From assembly GCA_017450885.1 (NCBI GenBank), contig JAFSSR010000043.1:1-40436 (forward strand): a DNA stretch of 40,436 nucleotides. The letters run 5' to 3'. A program made the translations under genes and the position numbers. Positions 8,609 to 40,436 of this stretch are shown here, in pieces (position 1 is the first letter of the stretch; every line of letters starts with the position of its first letter). Source of the stretch: Clostridia bacterium (lineage in GTDB: Bacteria > Bacillota > Clostridia > Oscillospirales > CAG-272). The notes below the pieces were generated by a model. The model saw only the letters and a program-made list of their open reading frames with translations, did not search any database and had not been told where the DNA came from.

Positions 8609-9760
8609 ATGGCGGAAAAAATGAAATTTATAGTAAACGGCAAAATAGTGCTTCCCGACGGTACGGTCGAGGGCAAGGCGCTCGCCTACGGAGAGAAGGT
8701 GTACGGTATAGTCGATCCTTTCGGACTCCCCGAGGGAGCCGAGGTCGTCGACGCGGGCGGGAACTACGTTTCGCCCGGATTTATCGACATGCACATCCAC
8801 GGCTATCTCGGCGCGGATACCTCGGACGGCGATCCCGCGGGGGTGCGGACGATGGCGGAGGGGGTACTCAAAAACGGAGTGACGACATTCCTCCCGACCA
8901 CAATGACCGTCTCCGAGGCGGAGATCAACGCCGCGCTCGACTCGGTGCGCTCCCTCAAAGCCGAAAGCGAGAGCTGGAACGGAGCGCGCATCGCGGGAGT
9001 CAACCTCGAAGGACCCTATATCAACCCGAAAAAGAAGGGCGCTCAGGCGGAGGAGCATATCAAGGCTCCCGACGCCGCGTTTATAAAGAAGAACGCCGAC
9101 ATCATCCGCATAGTCACGATAGCTCCCGAAATGGACGAGAACTGCGCCGCCATACGCGAGATCACGTCTGACACCAACGTGCGCGTCTCGATCGGTCACA
9201 CCGACGCGACATACGAGCAGGCGATCGAGGGCATCGAGGCGGGCGCGACGCACATCACCCACCTTTTCAACGCCCAGACTCCGCTCCATCACCGCAAGCC
9301 GGGCGTCGTCGGCGCCGCGCTGAAATATCCCGTCTCCTGCGAGCTTATCGCCGACACCTTCCACGTCCACCCCGGACTTTTCGGTCTGGTGTACGCGGTC
9401 AAGCGCGACAAGCTGGTGCTGATAACCGACTGCACCCGCGCGGGCGGTATGCCGGACGGCGAGTATTCGCTCGGCGGGCAGAAGACCTTTGTAAAGGGTA
9501 TCCAATGTCTTCTTGAAGACGGCACGATAGCGGGCAGCGTGCTCAAGCTGAACGCCGCCGTCCGAAATCTGCGCGATCACGCGGGCATCACCGTCGCGGA
9601 GGCGGTCGCCTGCGCGACGGTCAACCCCGCGAAGGCGCTGGGTATCGACGGCGAGTGCGGCTCGCTCGAGCCGGGCAAACGCGCCGATATTATAATTTTT
9701 GATGAAAATATTGAAATAAAGAAAGCGATAATCGCAGGAGAGGTCAGATATGAAAATTAA
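8609..9760 (+). CDS. nagA: N-acetylglucosamine-6-phosphate deacetylase
   Basis: 383 residues, the family norm. An amidohydrolase fold is shown by PGFIDMHIHGYLGADTSD (metal His pair), VNLEGPYINPKKKGAQ (metal Glu), SIGHTDATYEQA and THLFNAQTPLHHRKPG (metal His and substrate loop), and ITDCTRAGGMPDG (catalytic Asp). NagA removes acetate from GlcNAc-6-phosphate, a key step in amino-sugar use and cell-wall recycling. No nagB or GlcNAc transporter lies in the window. The next gene overlaps by 11 bases, so the two are probably one operon from the promoter at 8547-8575. Confidence 0.95.
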   Translation: MAEKMKFIVNGKIVLPDGTVEGKALAYGEKVYGIVDPFGLPEGAEVVDAGGNYVSPGFIDMHIHGYLGADTSDGDPAGVRTMAEGVLKNGVTTFLPTTMTVSEAEINAALDSVRSLKAESESWNGARIAGVNLEGPYINPKKKGAQAEEHIKAPDAAFIKKNADIIRIVTIAPEMDENCAAIREITSDTNVRVSIGHTDATYEQAIEGIEAGATHITHLFNAQTPLHHRKPGVVGAALKYPVSCELIADTFHVHPGLFGLVYAVKRDKLVLITDCTRAGGMPDGEYSLGGQKTFVKGIQCLLEDGTIAGSVLKLNAAVRNLRDHAGITVAEAVACATVNPAKALGIDGECGSLEPGKRADIIIFDENIEIKKAIIAGEVRYEN

Positions 9761-11120
9761 AGTCGCAGCCAAACTCGATCCCGGCTATATGCCGATACAT
9801 CTCGCCATGCTCGATTTCGAGCGCCGCGCTGCCGAGGAGGGGAGCGTTTCCGTCGCCGTCGCCGTGGAACGCGGCTCCGACCGCGTCAACGTCGTAAATA
9901 CAGCCGTCTTTGCGAGCGGACACGAGGACGAGAACTTCAACTACGTCGAAAGGCTTATAAAGTCGATGCTCTGGGTCTACGGCGGGTACAAGGTGATATT
10001 CGCCGGTCCGAAAAACGTCTTTGACCGCATCGACGCCGCCTACAAGCCGGACGGACTGCGCTCCTTCGACTATGGATTTATGGCAAAAGTGTTCGAGCAT
10101 CCCTTCGAGTGCGAGTACCGCGAGCTTGCAGATATGCCCGAGACCAAGGGCGCGTCTGCGTCTGTCGGACGCCACCTCGACGGCTGCCGCATCGGCTTCG
10201 ACGCCGGCGGAAGCGACCGCAAGGTCTCCGCGGTCATCGACGGCGAGACGGTATACTCCGAGGAGGTCGTATGGTTCCCCAAGACCTCCAAAGACCCGCA
10301 GTATCAGTACGACGGCATCCTCTCCGCCATGAAGACCGCCGCGTCGCATATGCCGCGCGTCGACGCGATCGGCGTCTCCAGTGCGGGAGTCATCATCAAC
10401 AACCGCCTTATGAGCTCGTCGATCTTTCTCGCGGTCAGCCCGGAGGATTACGAGCGCGTCGCAAAGAACGTATATCTCGACACCGCCCGTGAGATCGGCG
10501 ACGTTCCGGTCGAGGTGGCGAACGACGGCGACGTTACCGCACTCGCAGGAGCCATGGATCTCGGCGACAACAACGTCCTCGGCGTGGCTATGGGCACAAG
10601 CGAGGCGGGCGGCTACGTCGACGGCGACGGCAACGTCACCGGCTGGCTCAACGAGCTCGCCTTCGTACCCGCCGATTATTCAAAGGACGCTATGGTCGAC
10701 GAGTGGTCGGGCGACTACGGCTGCGGAGTGAAGTACTTCTCGCAGGACGCCGTGATCAAGCTCGCGCCCGCCGCGGGAATAGAACTCGATCCCTCGCTCT
10801 CTCCGGCGGAAAAGCTCAAGGTCGTCCAGGGGCTAATGAAAGAGGGGGACAGCCGCGCCGCCGCCATATATGAGACGATCGGCGTCTATTTCGGCTACAC
10901 CATCGCGTTCTACAGCAGATTTTACGATATAAAGCACGTCCTCATAATGGGACGCGTCACCTCCGGAGAGGGCGGACAGCTTGTGCTTGACAACGCGCAG
11001 AAGGTCCTCGACGCCGAATTCCCCGAGCTCGCGGAAAAGATCACGCTCCACATCCCGGACGAGAACAGCCGCCGCGTAGGGCAGTCGGTCGCCGCCGCAA
11101 GTCTGCCGGAGAGAAAGTAA
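9750..11120 (+). CDS. ROK-like ASKHA kinase-fold protein with an extra N-terminal domain
   Basis: 456 residues, about 140 longer than a standard ROK kinase. The first ~145 residues are an unrecognised domain (MKIKVAAKLDPGYMPIHLAM onward). From about residue 150 the ASKHA fold appears: IGFDAGGSDRKVSAVIDG as phosphate-1, GVSSAGVI, ANDGDVTALAGA with the probable catalytic Asp, and VAMGTSEAGGYVDGDG as phosphate-2. The ROK zinc motif CxCGxxGC is absent. An AGGAGAGG site and an 11-base overlap with nagA point to coupled expression, so an amino-sugar or cell-wall-sugar substrate is likely (inference). It could be a kinase or a sugar-binding regulator; no DNA-binding HTH is seen. Confidence 0.75.
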   Translation: MKIKVAAKLDPGYMPIHLAMLDFERRAAEEGSVSVAVAVERGSDRVNVVNTAVFASGHEDENFNYVERLIKSMLWVYGGYKVIFAGPKNVFDRIDAAYKPDGLRSFDYGFMAKVFEHPFECEYRELADMPETKGASASVGRHLDGCRIGFDAGGSDRKVSAVIDGETVYSEEVVWFPKTSKDPQYQYDGILSAMKTAASHMPRVDAIGVSSAGVIINNRLMSSSIFLAVSPEDYERVAKNVYLDTAREIGDVPVEVANDGDVTALAGAMDLGDNNVLGVAMGTSEAGGYVDGDGNVTGWLNELAFVPADYSKDAMVDEWSGDYGCGVKYFSQDAVIKLAPAAGIELDPSLSPAEKLKVVQGLMKEGDSRAAAIYETIGVYFGYTIAFYSRFYDIKHVLIMGRVTSGEGGQLVLDNAQKVLDAEFPELAEKITLHIPDENSRRVGQSVAAASLPERK

Positions 11121-11128
11121 GACGAGGG

Positions 11129-11181
11129 AAAGTACAAAGTTCAAAGTACAAAGTTCAAAGTTCAAAGATCAAAGTTCAAAG
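11129..11181. repeat. 7-bp tandem array (AAAGTTC/AAAGTAC), about 7.5 copies
   Basis: The heptamer AAAGTTC alternates with variants AAAGTAC and AAAGATC from just past the ROK-like stop. A two-copy remnant of the same motif (GTTCAAAGTTC) lies upstream of ccdA near 37410, so the unit recurs in the window. Confidence 0.8.
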
Positions 11182-11186
11182 ACGAG

Positions 11187-11300
11187 TCGCCGGTCGCCGG
11201 CGGGGCGCCGAAGGCGACACATACAAAAAAGCTCCTTCCCCCGCGGCGCAGCCGTGGGGAGGGGGAGCTGTCGCCGTAGGCGACTGAGGGGAGGGGCAAG
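11187..11300. repeat. Palindromic intergenic element with GGGGAGCT-GTCGCC-GGCGAC-TGAGGGG layout
   Basis: A long imperfect hairpin (AGCTCCTTCCCC paired with GGGGAGGGGGAGCT, about 11230-11269) is followed by a perfect GTCGCC-GTA-GGCGAC hairpin (11270-11284) and TGAGGGGAGGGG. Another GTCGCC/GGCGAC pair brackets 11187-11218. Similar GGGGAGCTGTC...GACTGAGGGG elements are, to my knowledge, dispersed in gut Clostridia genomes. No transposase is present. Confidence 0.6.
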
Positions 11301-11315
11301 GCTCGCTTCGCTCGC

Positions 11316-11341
11316 AATTAGGAATTAGGAATTAGGAATTA
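11316..11341. repeat. 7-bp tandem array (AATTAGG), 3.7 copies
   Basis: Three exact AATTAGG units plus AATTA. The period of seven matches the AAAGTTC array 135 bases upstream, but the sequence differs. A GTCGCC-TGC-GGCGAC palindrome follows at about 11345-11360. Confidence 0.75.
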
Positions 11342-11410
11342 ATGTGTCGCCTGCGGCGACGATTATTTGAAAACGTAAGGTGCTGTAACTTCGTTTTCGC
11401 ACCCAAACGC

Positions 11411-11445
11411 TGTCATTGCGAGGAGCGAAGCGACGCGGCAATCCG
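11411..11445. repeat. Dispersed repeat of the TCATTGCGAGGAGCGAAGCG type
   Basis: The stretch runs TCATTGCGAGGAGCGAAGCG then ACGCGGCAATCC, with ATTGC/GCAAT outer arms forming an imperfect hairpin. Elements of this kind are widespread short intergenic repeats in many bacteria. A 12-base inverted match (TCCTCGCAATGA) lies at 40295-40306. Confidence 0.6.
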
Positions 11446-11700
11446 TTTCCCCGCCTTCGAGGTCGTCAAATCCGAACGATGTTCAGCCGCCGCCTTTTCC
11501 TTGGGGGGAGGCGGCGCGGGCGTATACGGTCGCCCGCGACGAATGAGCAGTCCTGAAGATCAAACGATGTCCACTTACAGCGCGGCCTCATCTTCCGAAG
11601 GAAGCCCCGCTCGGTGAAGACGACCTCGTTCCCGTCCTGCGAGCCCCATTTTTCGTCACTTTCCATGTCGTGCTATATCAACTTTTTTTAAAAAAAACTT
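11446..11700. other. Gene-poor stretch with only a doubtful small ORF
   Basis: A 66-codon minus-strand frame (11466-11666) encodes a Trp-, Cys- and Arg-containing peptide with an Arg-rich end (PRKRRRLNIVRI). It has no ribosome-binding site and I do not recognise it. It could be a decayed gene fragment or chance. Nothing else is supported here up to the hisZ promoter. Confidence 0.3.
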
Positions 11701-11711
11701 TAACGCTTTAC

Positions 11712-11740
11712 TTGACTAATGCGATAAAGTGTGCTATAAT
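11712..11740 (+). promoter_or_regulatory. Promoter of the his operon
   Basis: -35 TTGACT (11712-11717), 17-bp spacer, perfect -10 TATAAT (11735-11740). The start codon lies only 41 bases beyond the -10, so there is no room for a T-box leader. A small CCGA-AAAT-TCGG hairpin with a T run (11743-11760) sits at the expected transcript 5' end. Confidence 0.8.
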
Positions 11741-11781
11741 ATCCGAAAATTCGGTTTTTCAATCATTCATCGGAGAAAAAT

Positions 11782-12870
11782 ATGATCTCACAATTCTGCA
11801 AGGATACCGCGGGCGAGCGCGATTTCGGCGCTCTGTACAGGCGCCTCGGCTACAAGCGCTTCCGTATGAGCCGCTTTGAGGAATACTCGCTTTACGCCGA
11901 GAACCGCAGCTTTCTGGTCAGCGACAGGGTGATAACCTTCAACGAGCCGGGCGGGCGCCTCATGGCTCTTCGTCCCGACGTAACGCTCTCCATCGCCAAG
12001 AGCTGCCCCGACGGAGGCGGTATCCAAAAGCTGTATTACAACGAAAACGTCTATCGCGTCGACGAAAGCTCGGGCGAGTTCCGTGAAATCATGCAGTCGG
12101 GGCTCGAATGTATGGGCGACGTTGACGTCTATTCGGTCTGCGAGGTGCTGATGCTCGCCGCCCGCAGTCTCGATATGATATCCGCCGACCGGGTGCTCGA
12201 CATTTCGGATATCAGCATCCTCGGCGCGGTCCTCGACGACGCGGGGCTCCGTGACGGCGCGCGCAAGCAGGCGCTTGGGCTTTTCGAGGCAAAGAACGCG
12301 CACGGACTGCGCGCTCTTTACGCTTCCTGCGGAGCCGATCCCGAAAAGGCCGAGCTCGCCTGCGAGATCTCCCAGATGTACGGGAAACCCGACGCGCTCA
12401 TCCCGCGTCTCAAAGAGATACTTCCCGCCGCGGCGCTCCCCGCGCTCGGCGAGCTCGAAGAGATAAACGCCCTGCTCTCGGAGATGGGAGTGGGCGGCGT
12501 GATGCTCGATTTTTCAATCGTCAACGATATGCACTACTACAACGGGCTGACCTTCCGCGGCTTCGTCTCCGGCTCTCCCCGTGCCGTACTTTCGGGCGGT
12601 CGGTACGACAACCTCATGTCCCGGCTCGGCAAAAACGCCAAAGCCATCGGCTTTGCCGTCTACCTCGACGCTATCGAAAGCATCGGCCGTGCGCCCGAAT
12701 GGGACGTCGACGTTAAGCTGGTCTACGACGGCTCCGTTACTCCCGCGCAGCTCATCGCCCGCGTCAGGGAGCTCACCGACGAGGGCAAGAGCGTCCGCGC
12801 GGTAAAGGGCAACGCCGGGGAAATACGCGCAAGGGAGACAGAATATCTCGGAAAGGGAGCGGCAGAATGA
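11782..12870 (+). CDS. hisZ: ATP phosphoribosyltransferase regulatory subunit HisZ
   Basis: 362 residues, a histidyl-tRNA synthetase-like catalytic domain without the anticodon-binding domain. It keeps class II motif 2 (FREIMQSGLECMG) and a motif 3-like end (SGGRYDNLMSRLGK then AIGFAVYLD). HisZ lacks aminoacylation activity and forms a hetero-octamer with the short HisG, conferring activity and histidine feedback. The adjacent hisG is indeed the short form lacking a C-terminal regulatory domain, which confirms the call. It is the first gene of the operon, with GGAG before the ATG, and it overlaps hisG by ATGA. Confidence 0.93.
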   Translation: MISQFCKDTAGERDFGALYRRLGYKRFRMSRFEEYSLYAENRSFLVSDRVITFNEPGGRLMALRPDVTLSIAKSCPDGGGIQKLYYNENVYRVDESSGEFREIMQSGLECMGDVDVYSVCEVLMLAARSLDMISADRVLDISDISILGAVLDDAGLRDGARKQALGLFEAKNAHGLRALYASCGADPEKAELACEISQMYGKPDALIPRLKEILPAAALPALGELEEINALLSEMGVGGVMLDFSIVNDMHYYNGLTFRGFVSGSPRAVLSGGRYDNLMSRLGKNAKAIGFAVYLDAIESIGRAPEWDVDVKLVYDGSVTPAQLIARVRELTDEGKSVRAVKGNAGEIRARETEYLGKGAAE

Positions 12871-35022: not shown

Positions 35023-36075
35023 TTAACGGCTTCCCGCCGTTCCGCACAGATCCTTTATGACCTCCCCGGCAATGATAAGACCGACGACCGACGGGACGAA
35101 GGCTACGCTTCCGGGGACGGAGCGGCGGCTCGCGGGTCGGTTATCGGGAGTTTCGGAATTACTGAATACCGGGCTTATATGTTCGCACGAGTCGGAATAC
35201 ACGTTTTGGGACACGCGGCTCGCGGGTTGGTTATCGGGAGTTTCGGAATTACTGAATACCGGGCTTGTGTGTTCGCACGAGTCGGAATACACGTTTTGGG
35301 GCCCGCGGCTCGCGAGCTGGTTATCGGGAGTTTCGGAATTACTGAATACCGGGCTTATATGTTCGCACGAGTCGGAATACACGTTTTGGGGCCCGCGGCT
35401 CGCGAGCTGGTTATCGGGAGTTTCGGAATTACTGAATACCGGGCTTGTGTGTTCGCACGAGTCGGAATACACGTTTTGGGGCCCGCGGCTCGCGGGAGGT
35501 TCTTTAGAAAAGACGACCTTGAGCTTTTTCACTCCGCGTTCTCTCAACTCCCGCCGCATGACCTTCGCCAGCGGGCAGACCGACGTTTTGTATATATCCG
35601 CGACCTCGAACCGGGTCGGGTCGAGCTTGTTTCCCGCACCCATCGAGCTGATTATAGGTACTCCCGCGGCGTTCGCGCGCATTACCAGCTCGATCTTTCC
35701 CGTCACCGTGTCGATGGCGTCGATCACGTAGTCGAATTGAGTGAAATCAAATCCGCGCGCTGTTTCCGGCGTGAAAAACACCCTGTGCTTTGTCACCTTG
35801 CAGCCGGGTGATATGTCCTTTATCCGCTCCTCGCAGACGTCGACCTTGTACCTGCCTATCGTGCTTCCGAGGGCGATTATCTGCCTGTTCAGGTTGGAAG
35901 GCGCGACGGTGTCGTTGTCCACTATGTCGATCGCTCCTATACCGCTCCGGACGAGGGCTTCGACGGCGAAGCCGCCCACCCCGCCGACGCCGAATACGGC
36001 GACCCGCTTGCCGGCGAGCGTTTCGACCGCCTCTTCTCCGAGGAGCAGAGCCGTCCTTGAAAGCCTCTCATCCAT
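35023..36075 (-). CDS. tcdA: tRNA threonylcarbamoyladenosine dehydratase (ThiF/MoeB-like) interrupted in frame by a 30-residue tandem repeat
   Basis: 350 residues, versus about 230-270 for the family. The E1-like core shows VAVFGVGGVGGFAVEALVRSG (ATP site), DNDTVAPSNLNRQ, FDYVIDAIDTV and SSMGAGNKLDP. After KLKVVFSKEPP, four copies of a 30-residue unit containing NVYSDSCEH and SPVFSNSETPDN intervene before the conserved end GSVAFVPSVVGLIIAGEVIKDL. TcdA cyclises t6A to ct6A in tRNAs. A longer ATG at 36099 exists, but GGAGG and the family start MDERLSRTALLLG support 36075, overlapping the upstream gene by 8 bases. Activity is plausible if the insert loops out. Confidence 0.9.
   Translation of the reverse strand: MDERLSRTALLLGEEAVETLAGKRVAVFGVGGVGGFAVEALVRSGIGAIDIVDNDTVAPSNLNRQIIALGSTIGRYKVDVCEERIKDISPGCKVTKHRVFFTPETARGFDFTQFDYVIDAIDTVTGKIELVMRANAAGVPIISSMGAGNKLDPTRFEVADIYKTSVCPLAKVMRRELRERGVKKLKVVFSKEPPASRGPQNVYSDSCEHTSPVFSNSETPDNQLASRGPQNVYSDSCEHISPVFSNSETPDNQLASRGPQNVYSDSCEHTSPVFSNSETPDNQPASRVSQNVYSDSCEHISPVFSNSETPDNRPASRRSVPGSVAFVPSVVGLIIAGEVIKDLCGTAGSR
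35126..35496. repeat. 90-bp tandem repeat array (4.1 copies) inside tcdA
   Basis: Units lie at 35126-35215, 35216-35305, 35306-35395 and 35396-35485, plus an 11-base start of a fifth. About 83 of 90 positions are invariant. Two linked changes (CTTATATG versus CTTGTGTG) alternate A-B-A-B along the array. The unit is a multiple of three and is open in the coding frame and in two plus-strand frames. No spacers separate the units, so it is not CRISPR. Confidence 0.97.
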
Positions 36076-39759: not shown

Positions 39760-40230
39760 ATGAAAAAACCAGGAAAAACTGAGAAAAGGATACTTAAAAT
39801 CAGAGTGTTTTTCATAGCCTCCGCCGTTTTTTTGGCGCTTCTCGGAACGCTTACGATAATCGGTATACTGAATGACGAAACGCGCCCGAACTGGCATGCG
39901 GCAATTTGCGCGATCCCGTTCGTCGTGATGATAATATTTGAGGCCGTCCTGTCTTTTCGTGTCCTTTCTTACGCGTTCCATATAGAGTTTGGCGATCATA
40001 ATACCATATTTGTGACAGGATTTGGCAATGTGTCTGTAAACAATAACGATGTTTATGAGGTGAGCGTAATCAAAGGCGTTTTTGCAGGAAAGCCGGAGAA
40101 GCTGACGATAAAATCGAATGACGGAATTAAAACACGCGTATTTAAATACAGGTCAAAGGTTTTCGGAGATGAAAACGAAGCGTTTGAAAAATGCAGAAGG
40201 TACTTTGACCGTGCCGTTTTTATCGGGTAG
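39760..40230 (+). CDS. Small membrane protein of unknown function
   Basis: 156 residues with AAGGAG before the ATG. A basic start precedes two membrane helices (about 15-35 and 46-68), then a soluble C-terminal half with a PH-like strand pattern (NTIFVTGFGNVSVNNNDVYE, KLTIKSNDGIKTRVFKY). G+C content is visibly lower than in most neighbours. It may work with the preceding two-helix protein, with which it shares size and topology, but this is only proximity. Confidence 0.72.
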   Translation: MKKPGKTEKRILKIRVFFIASAVFLALLGTLTIIGILNDETRPNWHAAICAIPFVVMIIFEAVLSFRVLSYAFHIEFGDHNTIFVTGFGNVSVNNNDVYEVSVIKGVFAGKPEKLTIKSNDGIKTRVFKYRSKVFGDENEAFEKCRRYFDRAVFIG

Positions 40231-40249
40231 TATTAATACACTATTATTG

Positions 40250-40276
40250 CCCGCCCGCGGGATCGCCGCGGGCGGG
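40250..40276. terminator. G+C-rich hairpin after the last gene
   Basis: Perfect 11-bp arms CCCGCCCGCGG and CCGCGGGCGGG around GATCG. No T run follows, so termination strength is uncertain. Confidence 0.55.
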
Positions 40277-40289
40277 TATCGAACACCGC

Positions 40290-40400
40290 GGACGTCCTCG
40301 CAATGAAGGCGTTCGGACAGGGAAAGATATTAAGTGCGCCGGATTAACAAAGCGCACCCGGCTTCGTAGGGCGGGGTTTTAACCCCACCGCCCAAGCAGA
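40290..40400. repeat. Intergenic repeat remnants at the right edge
   Basis: TCCTCGCAATGA (40295-40306) is an inverted 12-base match to the element at 11411. A hairpin GGGCGGGGTT-TT-AACCCC-x-CCGCCC follows at about 40369-40393. No gene is visible to the end of the window. Confidence 0.5.
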
Positions 40401-40436
40401 CGATCAGCGCGATCGAAAGATCCGTGCGCTGCACGC

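Follow-up and report, generated by a model that had tools for sequence, protein, structure and literature searches.

The gap between the genes for a ROK-family protein and a histidyl-tRNA-synthetase-like (HisRS-like) protein in the window, that is, in the whole 40,436-nucleotide stretch of DNA analysed here, is read as a pile-up of non-autonomous dispersed elements, the central one of which would be one end-repeat of a two-component system that couples a DUF559 gene with triplex-type repeats and is mobilised in trans; we give this reading a probability of about 0.6. The direct observations behind it are the repeat itself and its copy number, the bracketing of DUF559 genes by the repeat in distant lineages, an association of copy number with DUF559, and the mirror symmetry of the repeat's tail.

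Organisation and dispersal of the repeats

The window is contig C179 of the draft genome G000, which comprises 2,219,541 bases in 235 contigs. The initial annotation had described the gap as a mosaic of several unrelated dispersed repeat families lying side by side, and all of the motifs that it named were recovered, from the sequence, by TRF or by repeat search (Table 1). A 17-nt inverted pair (94%) flanks the middle of the gap on both sides. The stretch 11561-11781 has no match among the other own-genome loci compared, so part of the gap is non-repeat.

Table 1. Features of the intergenic gap and of the genes on either side
Feature	Position	Strand	Basis or remark
ROK-family protein gene (flanking)	9750-11120	+	PF00480, 6e-7
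AAAGTTC heptamer array, separately dispersed module	11129-11183	.	TRF (11129-11181), 7.6 copies, score 85; own breakpoints in self-comparison
GTCGCC palindromes	11186-11198, 11270-11284, 11346-11360		sequence
Inverted pair, left arm, GTCGCC-type palindrome, ...GGCGACACAT	11206-11222	+	repeat search, 17 nt, 94%
Central element, two hairpins, purine-motif triplex-type (PIT-like), ~72 bp	11228-11299	+	
Hairpin 1, pyrimidine arm AGCTCCTTCCCCC..., purine arm GGGGAGGGGGAGCT	11230-11269	+	DNA fold
GGGGAGCT...GACTGAGGGG hairpin	11262-11291		
Hairpin 2, GTCGCC GTA GGCGAC	11270-11284	+	DNA fold
Purine tail GAGGGGAGGGG, candidate third strand	11286-11296	+	sequence; mirrors purine arm minus one G
Composite dispersed repeat, ~160 bp (AATTAGG array, GTCGCC palindrome/hairpin, TCATTGCGAGG element)	11316-11478	+	
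AATTAGG heptamer array	11316-11341	+	TRF, 3.7 copies, score 52
Inverted pair, right arm, ATGTGTCGCCTGCGGCG	11342-11358	+	partner of 11206-11222; overlaps palindrome 11346-11360
TCATTGCGAGGAGCGAAGCGACGCGGCAATCCG element (the TCATTGCGAGG / TCATTGCG element)	11413-11445	+	16 matches in G000; without stable fold
HisRS-like protein gene (flanking)	11782-12870	+	PF13393, 2e-52

None of the motifs is single-copy in G000. The pattern AAAGTTCAAAGTTCAAAG for the AAAGTTC array gave 66 overlapping matches at 32 places and AATTAGGAATTAGGAATTA for the AATTAGG array 50 matches at 29 places, while with up to 3 mismatches GGAGCTGTCGCCGNAGGCGACTGAGGGG for the hairpin element gave 26 matches and TCATTGCGAGGAGCGAAGCGACG for the TCATTGCG element gave 16. 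Control patterns read backward had 0 matches each time, which rules out chance, and the copy numbers are probably too low because many copies sit close to contig ends.

Co-occurrence was scored within 400 bp, against the number expected when every copy is restricted to 10% of the genome. On this scale the AATTAGG array and the hairpin element stand together at 9 of 29 places (expected 2.6), the TCATTGCG element and the hairpin element at 5 of 16 (expected 1.4), and the AATTAGG array and the TCATTGCG element at 5 of 29 (expected 1.6). The proposed clustering of the families thus holds above chance for three of them and fails for AAAGTTC, which meets the other three at 1, 2 and 2 of its 32 places (expected 1.8 to 3.2) and, lacking any excess, was rejected as part of one compound unit. 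All four families occur together in this gap only, within G000. When the gap is compared with other loci of its own genome, recurrent breakpoints delimit the AAAGTTC array, the 72-bp element and the composite. Seven other contigs (C54, C65, C9, C93, C113, C158 and C164) repeat the composite in whole or for the greater part. The gap is a collage of these separately dispersed units, and several of the families listed in the initial annotation probably arrived jointly, because the composite is itself dispersed. The picture of a mosaic is borne out, then, and that of a site especially tolerant of repeated insertion is not: there is no sign of a special site, and identical modules are shuffled over dozens of gaps.

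The TCATTGCGAGG element resembles the CGTC-tagged REPs, as these are set out in the available part of PMC3733652, in its TGTC tag, AT...AT ends and CC tail, but has an outer stem of 5 bp (by eye) rather than 8-9 bp; on account of this stem and of a fold z of 0.41, without a stable fold, it was rejected as a full CGTC-REP. An element of the TCATTGCGA...GGCAATCC kind is also found with a quite different inner hairpin, AGCCCCAAAGGGGCT (L004, L011; G000:C98, C24), and has in this sense an exchangeable hairpin slot. Elsewhere in the window, at 35125-35496, a 90-bp unit is repeated about 4 times (95%) in frame within a minus-strand ORF, adding protein repeats of about 30 residues; the ORF is presumably TcdA/E1-like. 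At 40230-40436 the contig terminates in a CCTCGCAATGA fragment and GTAGGGCGGGGTTTTAACCCC, and since this end is repeat material the assembly probably broke there.

The central element

On one DNA strand the central element folds into hairpin 1, hairpin 2 and then an unpaired purine tail, with a z of -3.44 and with 0 of 200 shuffles folding equally well. Similar stretches lie at more than 25 other places in G000. Among copies in the same context the arms of hairpin 2 vary with their complementarity kept, for instance as CCCGGC/GCCGGG, GTCAGC/GCTGAC and GTCACGC/GCGTGAC. The covariance model R1, built from 38 of 62 distinct repeat sequences found at DUF559 flanks, matches 11234-11294 at E=5e-7, the window sequence being absent from its training set. 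A known structured RNA was rejected, with no Rfam match at E<=1, and a GTAG or GTGG tag at the hairpin foot is absent from the sequence 11228-11299.

DUF559 genes between inverted repeats

What could move such an element? An enzyme acting in trans had been envisaged in the initial annotation, and a candidate was found in the DUF559 genes bracketed by the hairpin element, along with one Y1 transposase (RAYT-type) gene near a different, GTAG-type repeat. The latter, the single Y1_Tnp gene of G000, lies on C160 (L106) among GTAGGG(G)CGGGG...CCCCGCCCTA repeats, which on one side of it form a tandem block; a Y1 transposase flanked by GTAG-type REPs is the arrangement described for RAYTs. Its own flanks being GTAGGG..CCCTA repeats, it was rejected as mobiliser of the central element.

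The search of G000 for DUF559 gave three matches, one of which contains an in-frame stop; each is bracketed by inverted copies of the element. Two of the proteins score 90.8 and 76.6 bits against PF04480 (cut-off 20.6; 167 bits for E. coli YcjD). Near-identical copies of the central element bracket the DUF559 genes on C33, and the gene on C101 has its own repeat, since a different variant stands on both of its sides. DUF559 is present in 68 of 146 genomes of the window's taxonomic family, here as a lone domain of about 120 aa. Inverted repeats that score z>4 relative to dinucleotide-shuffled sequence flank 36 of 73 DUF559 genes and 0 of 54 neighbour genes at the same loci, where the 73 loci are the 3 from G000, 30 from the family-wide search and 40 further high-scoring ones rather than all matches, and the 54 are those with a usable neighbour ORF. 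With a strict two-hairpin descriptor the same 73 loci divide into 25 with the repeat in both flanks, 21 with it in one and 27 with none; among 286 random windows 2 fitted the descriptor, and among 146 shuffled flanks none did. At many loci the two ends differ consistently, with GGTGGC..GACGGAGGG on the left and AGCTGTC..GACTGAGGG on the right, and the DUF559 stop codon often lies inside or adjoining the right repeat.

The arrangement recurs outside the family, mostly in Proteobacteria. A tblastn search of plasmid records found DUF559 in 48 records from many groups; in several of the 13 inspected, a C-rich hairpin repeat, of the CCCTCACCCTAACCCTCTCCC or CTTCTCCCC kind, adjoins the gene. S. meliloti has it on either side of the gene, and so, in a related form, does N. 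gonorrhoeae. A genome scan with the proteobacterial alignment kept 80 DUF559 loci, of which 79 were tested, one being too short. Inverted flanks at z>4 were found around 33 of these 79 genes as against 2 of the 75 control genes; one or both flanks held a C-rich hairpin at 76 of the 79 loci, as did 54 of 282 background windows. In E. coli ycjD is a DUF559 gene, present in 3365 of 5426 genomes; the repeat lies downstream of it. The Sphingomonas plasmid record NZ_CP155753 (L185) has a DUF559 gene between sufB and sufC, and the C-terminal end of its protein, PHPNPSPEGEGLEGL, resembles translated repeat.

Repeats and small selfish genes might also gather independently in permissive intergenic space, with DUF559 a mere passenger. 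Such a view would accommodate the co-occurrence of unrelated families in G000 and the background frequency of the C-rich hairpin in the proteobacterial set, but it sits poorly with the symmetric inverted flanks of DUF559 genes as compared with their neighbours in both sets of loci, with stop codons inside or adjoining the repeat, and with the C101 gene that has its own variant on either side. It is held to be improbable. The association between DUF559 and the repeat is strong.

The mirror tail and triplex-forming repeats

Read in mirror order, the purine arm reappears in the tail of the repeat (GGGAGAG...GAGAGGG, GGGGGAGAGG...GGAGAGGGGG, GGGAGAGGAAGG...GGAAGGAGAGGG), with T sometimes in place of A. 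Pairing in the purine-motif triplex is of the G.GC, A.AT and T.AT types, and a tail in mirror order fits the requirement of such a triplex. Among 81 distinct non-symmetric arms from DUF559 flanks the tail matched the arm better in mirror order in 40 and in direct order in 7, with 34 ties; full-length matches numbered 23 in mirror order against 3 in direct order, and 1 of 72 upstream of the hairpin. In the window copy and its own-genome variant the mirror match requires a one-base gap, and the ungapped tail of the C33 copy matches at 9 of 11 positions (shuffle p 0.6), which is not significant alone.

The block order of the PIT/TM repeats, namely a pyrimidine arm, a purine arm and a mirroring purine third strand, is found across the DUF559 flanks. 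PIT elements were reportedly the subject of Hoyne et al. 2000/2002. The available text of PMC4666352 (Holder et al. 2015), where that work is cited, gives 23 copies of the triplex motif in E. coli K-12 and more than 260 genomes that have it, reports that TM-ECO forms a triplex in vitro, describes inverted repeat pairs in E. coli, ties the motif to genome instability there, and holds that mobility genes were never found near the repeats; the terms 'DUF' and 'endonuclease' are absent from that text. Like PIT/TM-ECO, the repeats described here have a C-rich arm, a complementary purine arm and a mirroring purine tail, are intergenic and dispersed with frequent inverted pairs, and at several proteobacterial DUF559 flanks are of the GGGAGAGGG-TTA-GGGTGAGGG kind. 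In contrast to them, the second loop of the window copy and its relatives holds a further, variable hairpin, and the repeats bracket DUF559 where that paper, in its available part, reports no association with a mobility gene. The second linker of the window copy contains a 15-nt hairpin, beyond the loops of 1-6 nt that the search in PMC4666352 permitted, which is why two-hairpin copies were missed by it, and for the same reason the central element appears from its sequence to be a variant with an extra hairpin, rather than a plain member, of the known purine-motif intrastrand-triplex repeats (PIT/TM motif).

A role for the host could also be considered, in which the repeats are kept for function as terminators, mRNA-stabilising hairpins or nucleoid signals and DUF559 acts in repair, removing or tolerating their odd structure. 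The strong hairpins, the Vsr-like nature of DUF559 and the tie of triplex repeats to instability in E. coli (PMC4666352, available part) are in keeping with this. An earlier study cited by that source, however, saw no promoter or terminator activity for the motifs, and a repair role does not predict the inverted symmetry of the repeats around the gene, so that this explanation is given little probability.

Copy number and repeat dialects

The repeat was found by R1 in 67 of 68 DUF559-positive and 37 of 78 DUF559-negative genomes, and in at least 5 copies in 66 of the former and 25 of the latter, the model having been trained on DUF559 flanks of these same genomes, a bias that favours the positive ones. 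Net of two copies per gene, positive genomes exceed negative ones in 16 of the 20 genera holding both (p=0.012) and have fewer copies in the other 4, where about 41 candidates were scored per genome and high copy numbers are at-least values. Because of this training and of counts limited near 41, the association supports the link between DUF559 and the repeat rather than proving it. The repeats also fall into dialects: at least 3 copies of the CTTCTC/GATGAGG dialect were present in 11 of 16 genomes with S-type DUF559 against 7 of 30 (p=0.004), and the second of the two dialect tests, of M-type DUF559 with the other dialect, was not significant (p=0.13).

Relatives of DUF559 and insertion sites

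In the PDB the relatives of the DUF559 profile are 3hrl (endonuclease-like, 2e-23) and 3r3p (a mobile intron protein, 5.5e-6). We take 3r3p to be I-Bth0305I, reportedly the subject of Taylor 2011. These two matches make up the likeness of DUF559 to EDxHD/Vsr-fold endonucleases such as I-Bth0305I, from which it differs as a lone short domain, outside any intron or intein and bracketed by triplex-type repeats. A YcjD profile finds Vsr, according to the part of PMC1189080 available.

The main rival to mobilisation in trans builds on this kinship. Pre-existing inverted pairs of triplex repeats would be targets of DUF559 acting as a free-standing homing endonuclease: it would cut between the arms, and homology to the arms would let it be copied in, the repeats themselves spreading otherwise. 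Besides the mobile intron domain of 3r3p, the assignment of one DUF559 gene to the EDxHD homing family (PMC9403480, available part) and the existence of inverted pairs without a gene (G140:C21; Shinella; the E. coli pairs in the available text of PMC4666352) speak for it. Homing leaves unexplained, however, both the many single copies and a repeat copy number that tracks DUF559, and a lone DUF559 of about 120 aa is without the extra DNA-binding regions of EDxHD homing enzymes (PMC3943268, as far as available). We regard it as unlikely.

Clean insertion of a DUF559-repeat unit into an empty site was not found in the Sinorhizobium, E. coli and G139/G037 comparisons: Sinorhizobium Ak57 has a truncated DUF559 gene and not an empty site, in three E. 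coli strains without ycjD other genes follow sapF, and the empty site of G139/G037 belongs to a larger cassette and not to the DUF559 unit. An exact loss was seen, in that G097:C23 has the cargo-gene cassette of G139:C3 minus the DUF559 unit, joined at the 7-bp direct repeat CTCCCTT; slippage accounts for this as well as excision does.

The dsbA-smc gap holds a full-length DUF559 gene, a truncated DUF559 gene ending in repeat (S. meliloti Ak57) or a repeat pair of another type, the loci being L283 (S. meliloti Ak57), L183 (Sinorhizobium K101) and L284 (Shinella). A separate cassette with inverted ends CTCTAAAGGACAGTTTT has a different cargo gene in most copies (L118 737-2008, which is G139:C14; L301, which is G037:C13; L302, L303, L306, L308). 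It appears to be inserted in the loop of apparent intrinsic terminator hairpins, and the site that it occupies in G139:C14 has its empty counterpart in G037:C13, where the hairpin is uninterrupted.

A proposed DUF559-repeat system

Under the preferred reading, mobilisation in trans, a small DUF559 gene (PD-(D/E)XK, Vsr-like) would be enclosed by a repeat in two inverted copies. A single DNA strand of this repeat may form a hairpin, with its purine tail laid back as the third strand of a purine-motif triplex and with a linker that often holds a second, sequence-variable hairpin. We infer that the folded repeat, on single-stranded or extruded DNA, is recognised and then nicked by DUF559, after which the gene with its repeats, or the repeats alone, would be copied to other places through repair or strand switching. 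The role of DUF559 would then parallel that supposed for the RAYT transposases, which are thought to mobilise REP sequences (PMC6006769 and PMC3733652, both in their available parts).

By this analogy DUF559 and the triplex repeats are best read as a REP/RAYT-like pair, of which the window copy would be a non-autonomous derivative. As in the REPs with RAYT or TnpA-REP (REPtrons), and within what is available of PMC6006769 and PMC3733652, short palindromic repeats have many intergenic copies and flank the enzyme gene, each enzyme having its own repeat family. Unlike in REPtrons, the enzyme here is PD-(D/E)XK and Vsr-like and not a HuH tyrosine transposase, the GTAG tag is lacking and a mirror tail is present.

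MITEs are short, non-coding, dispersed sequences whose ends are common to a longer gene-bearing element. The window element is likewise short, non-coding and dispersed, and has end sequences in common with a gene-bearing unit, but it differs from MITEs in being without a classical transposase, and no target-site duplication was identified here.

More tentatively, and at somewhat less than even odds, DUF559 with triplex-forming ends might be a class of mobile element apart from the HuH, DDE and recombinase elements, in which a lone Vsr-fold nuclease reads an intramolecular triplex end. Such a nuclease might be the missing mobiliser of the PIT/TM repeats in lineages ranging from E. coli to the family of the window; the second, variable hairpin might be an evolving recognition module that separates gene and repeat families.

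Significance

Among the matches listed from the open-licence literature none links DUF559 or YcjD to triplex or inverted repeats, and none for the exact repeat strings is on topic by its title; reports elsewhere may exist. Triplex repeats are abundant in many bacteria and tied to instability, and the available text of PMC4666352 reports no mobiliser gene for them. The bracketing of DUF559 suggests what spreads this long-known, unexplained family of triplex-forming repeats. Seen as it is in distant lineages, the bracketing provides the repeats with a candidate enzyme and DUF559, a family of unassigned function, with a candidate role. Type strains of E. coli K-12 hold both ycjD and the repeats, so the hypothesis is directly testable.
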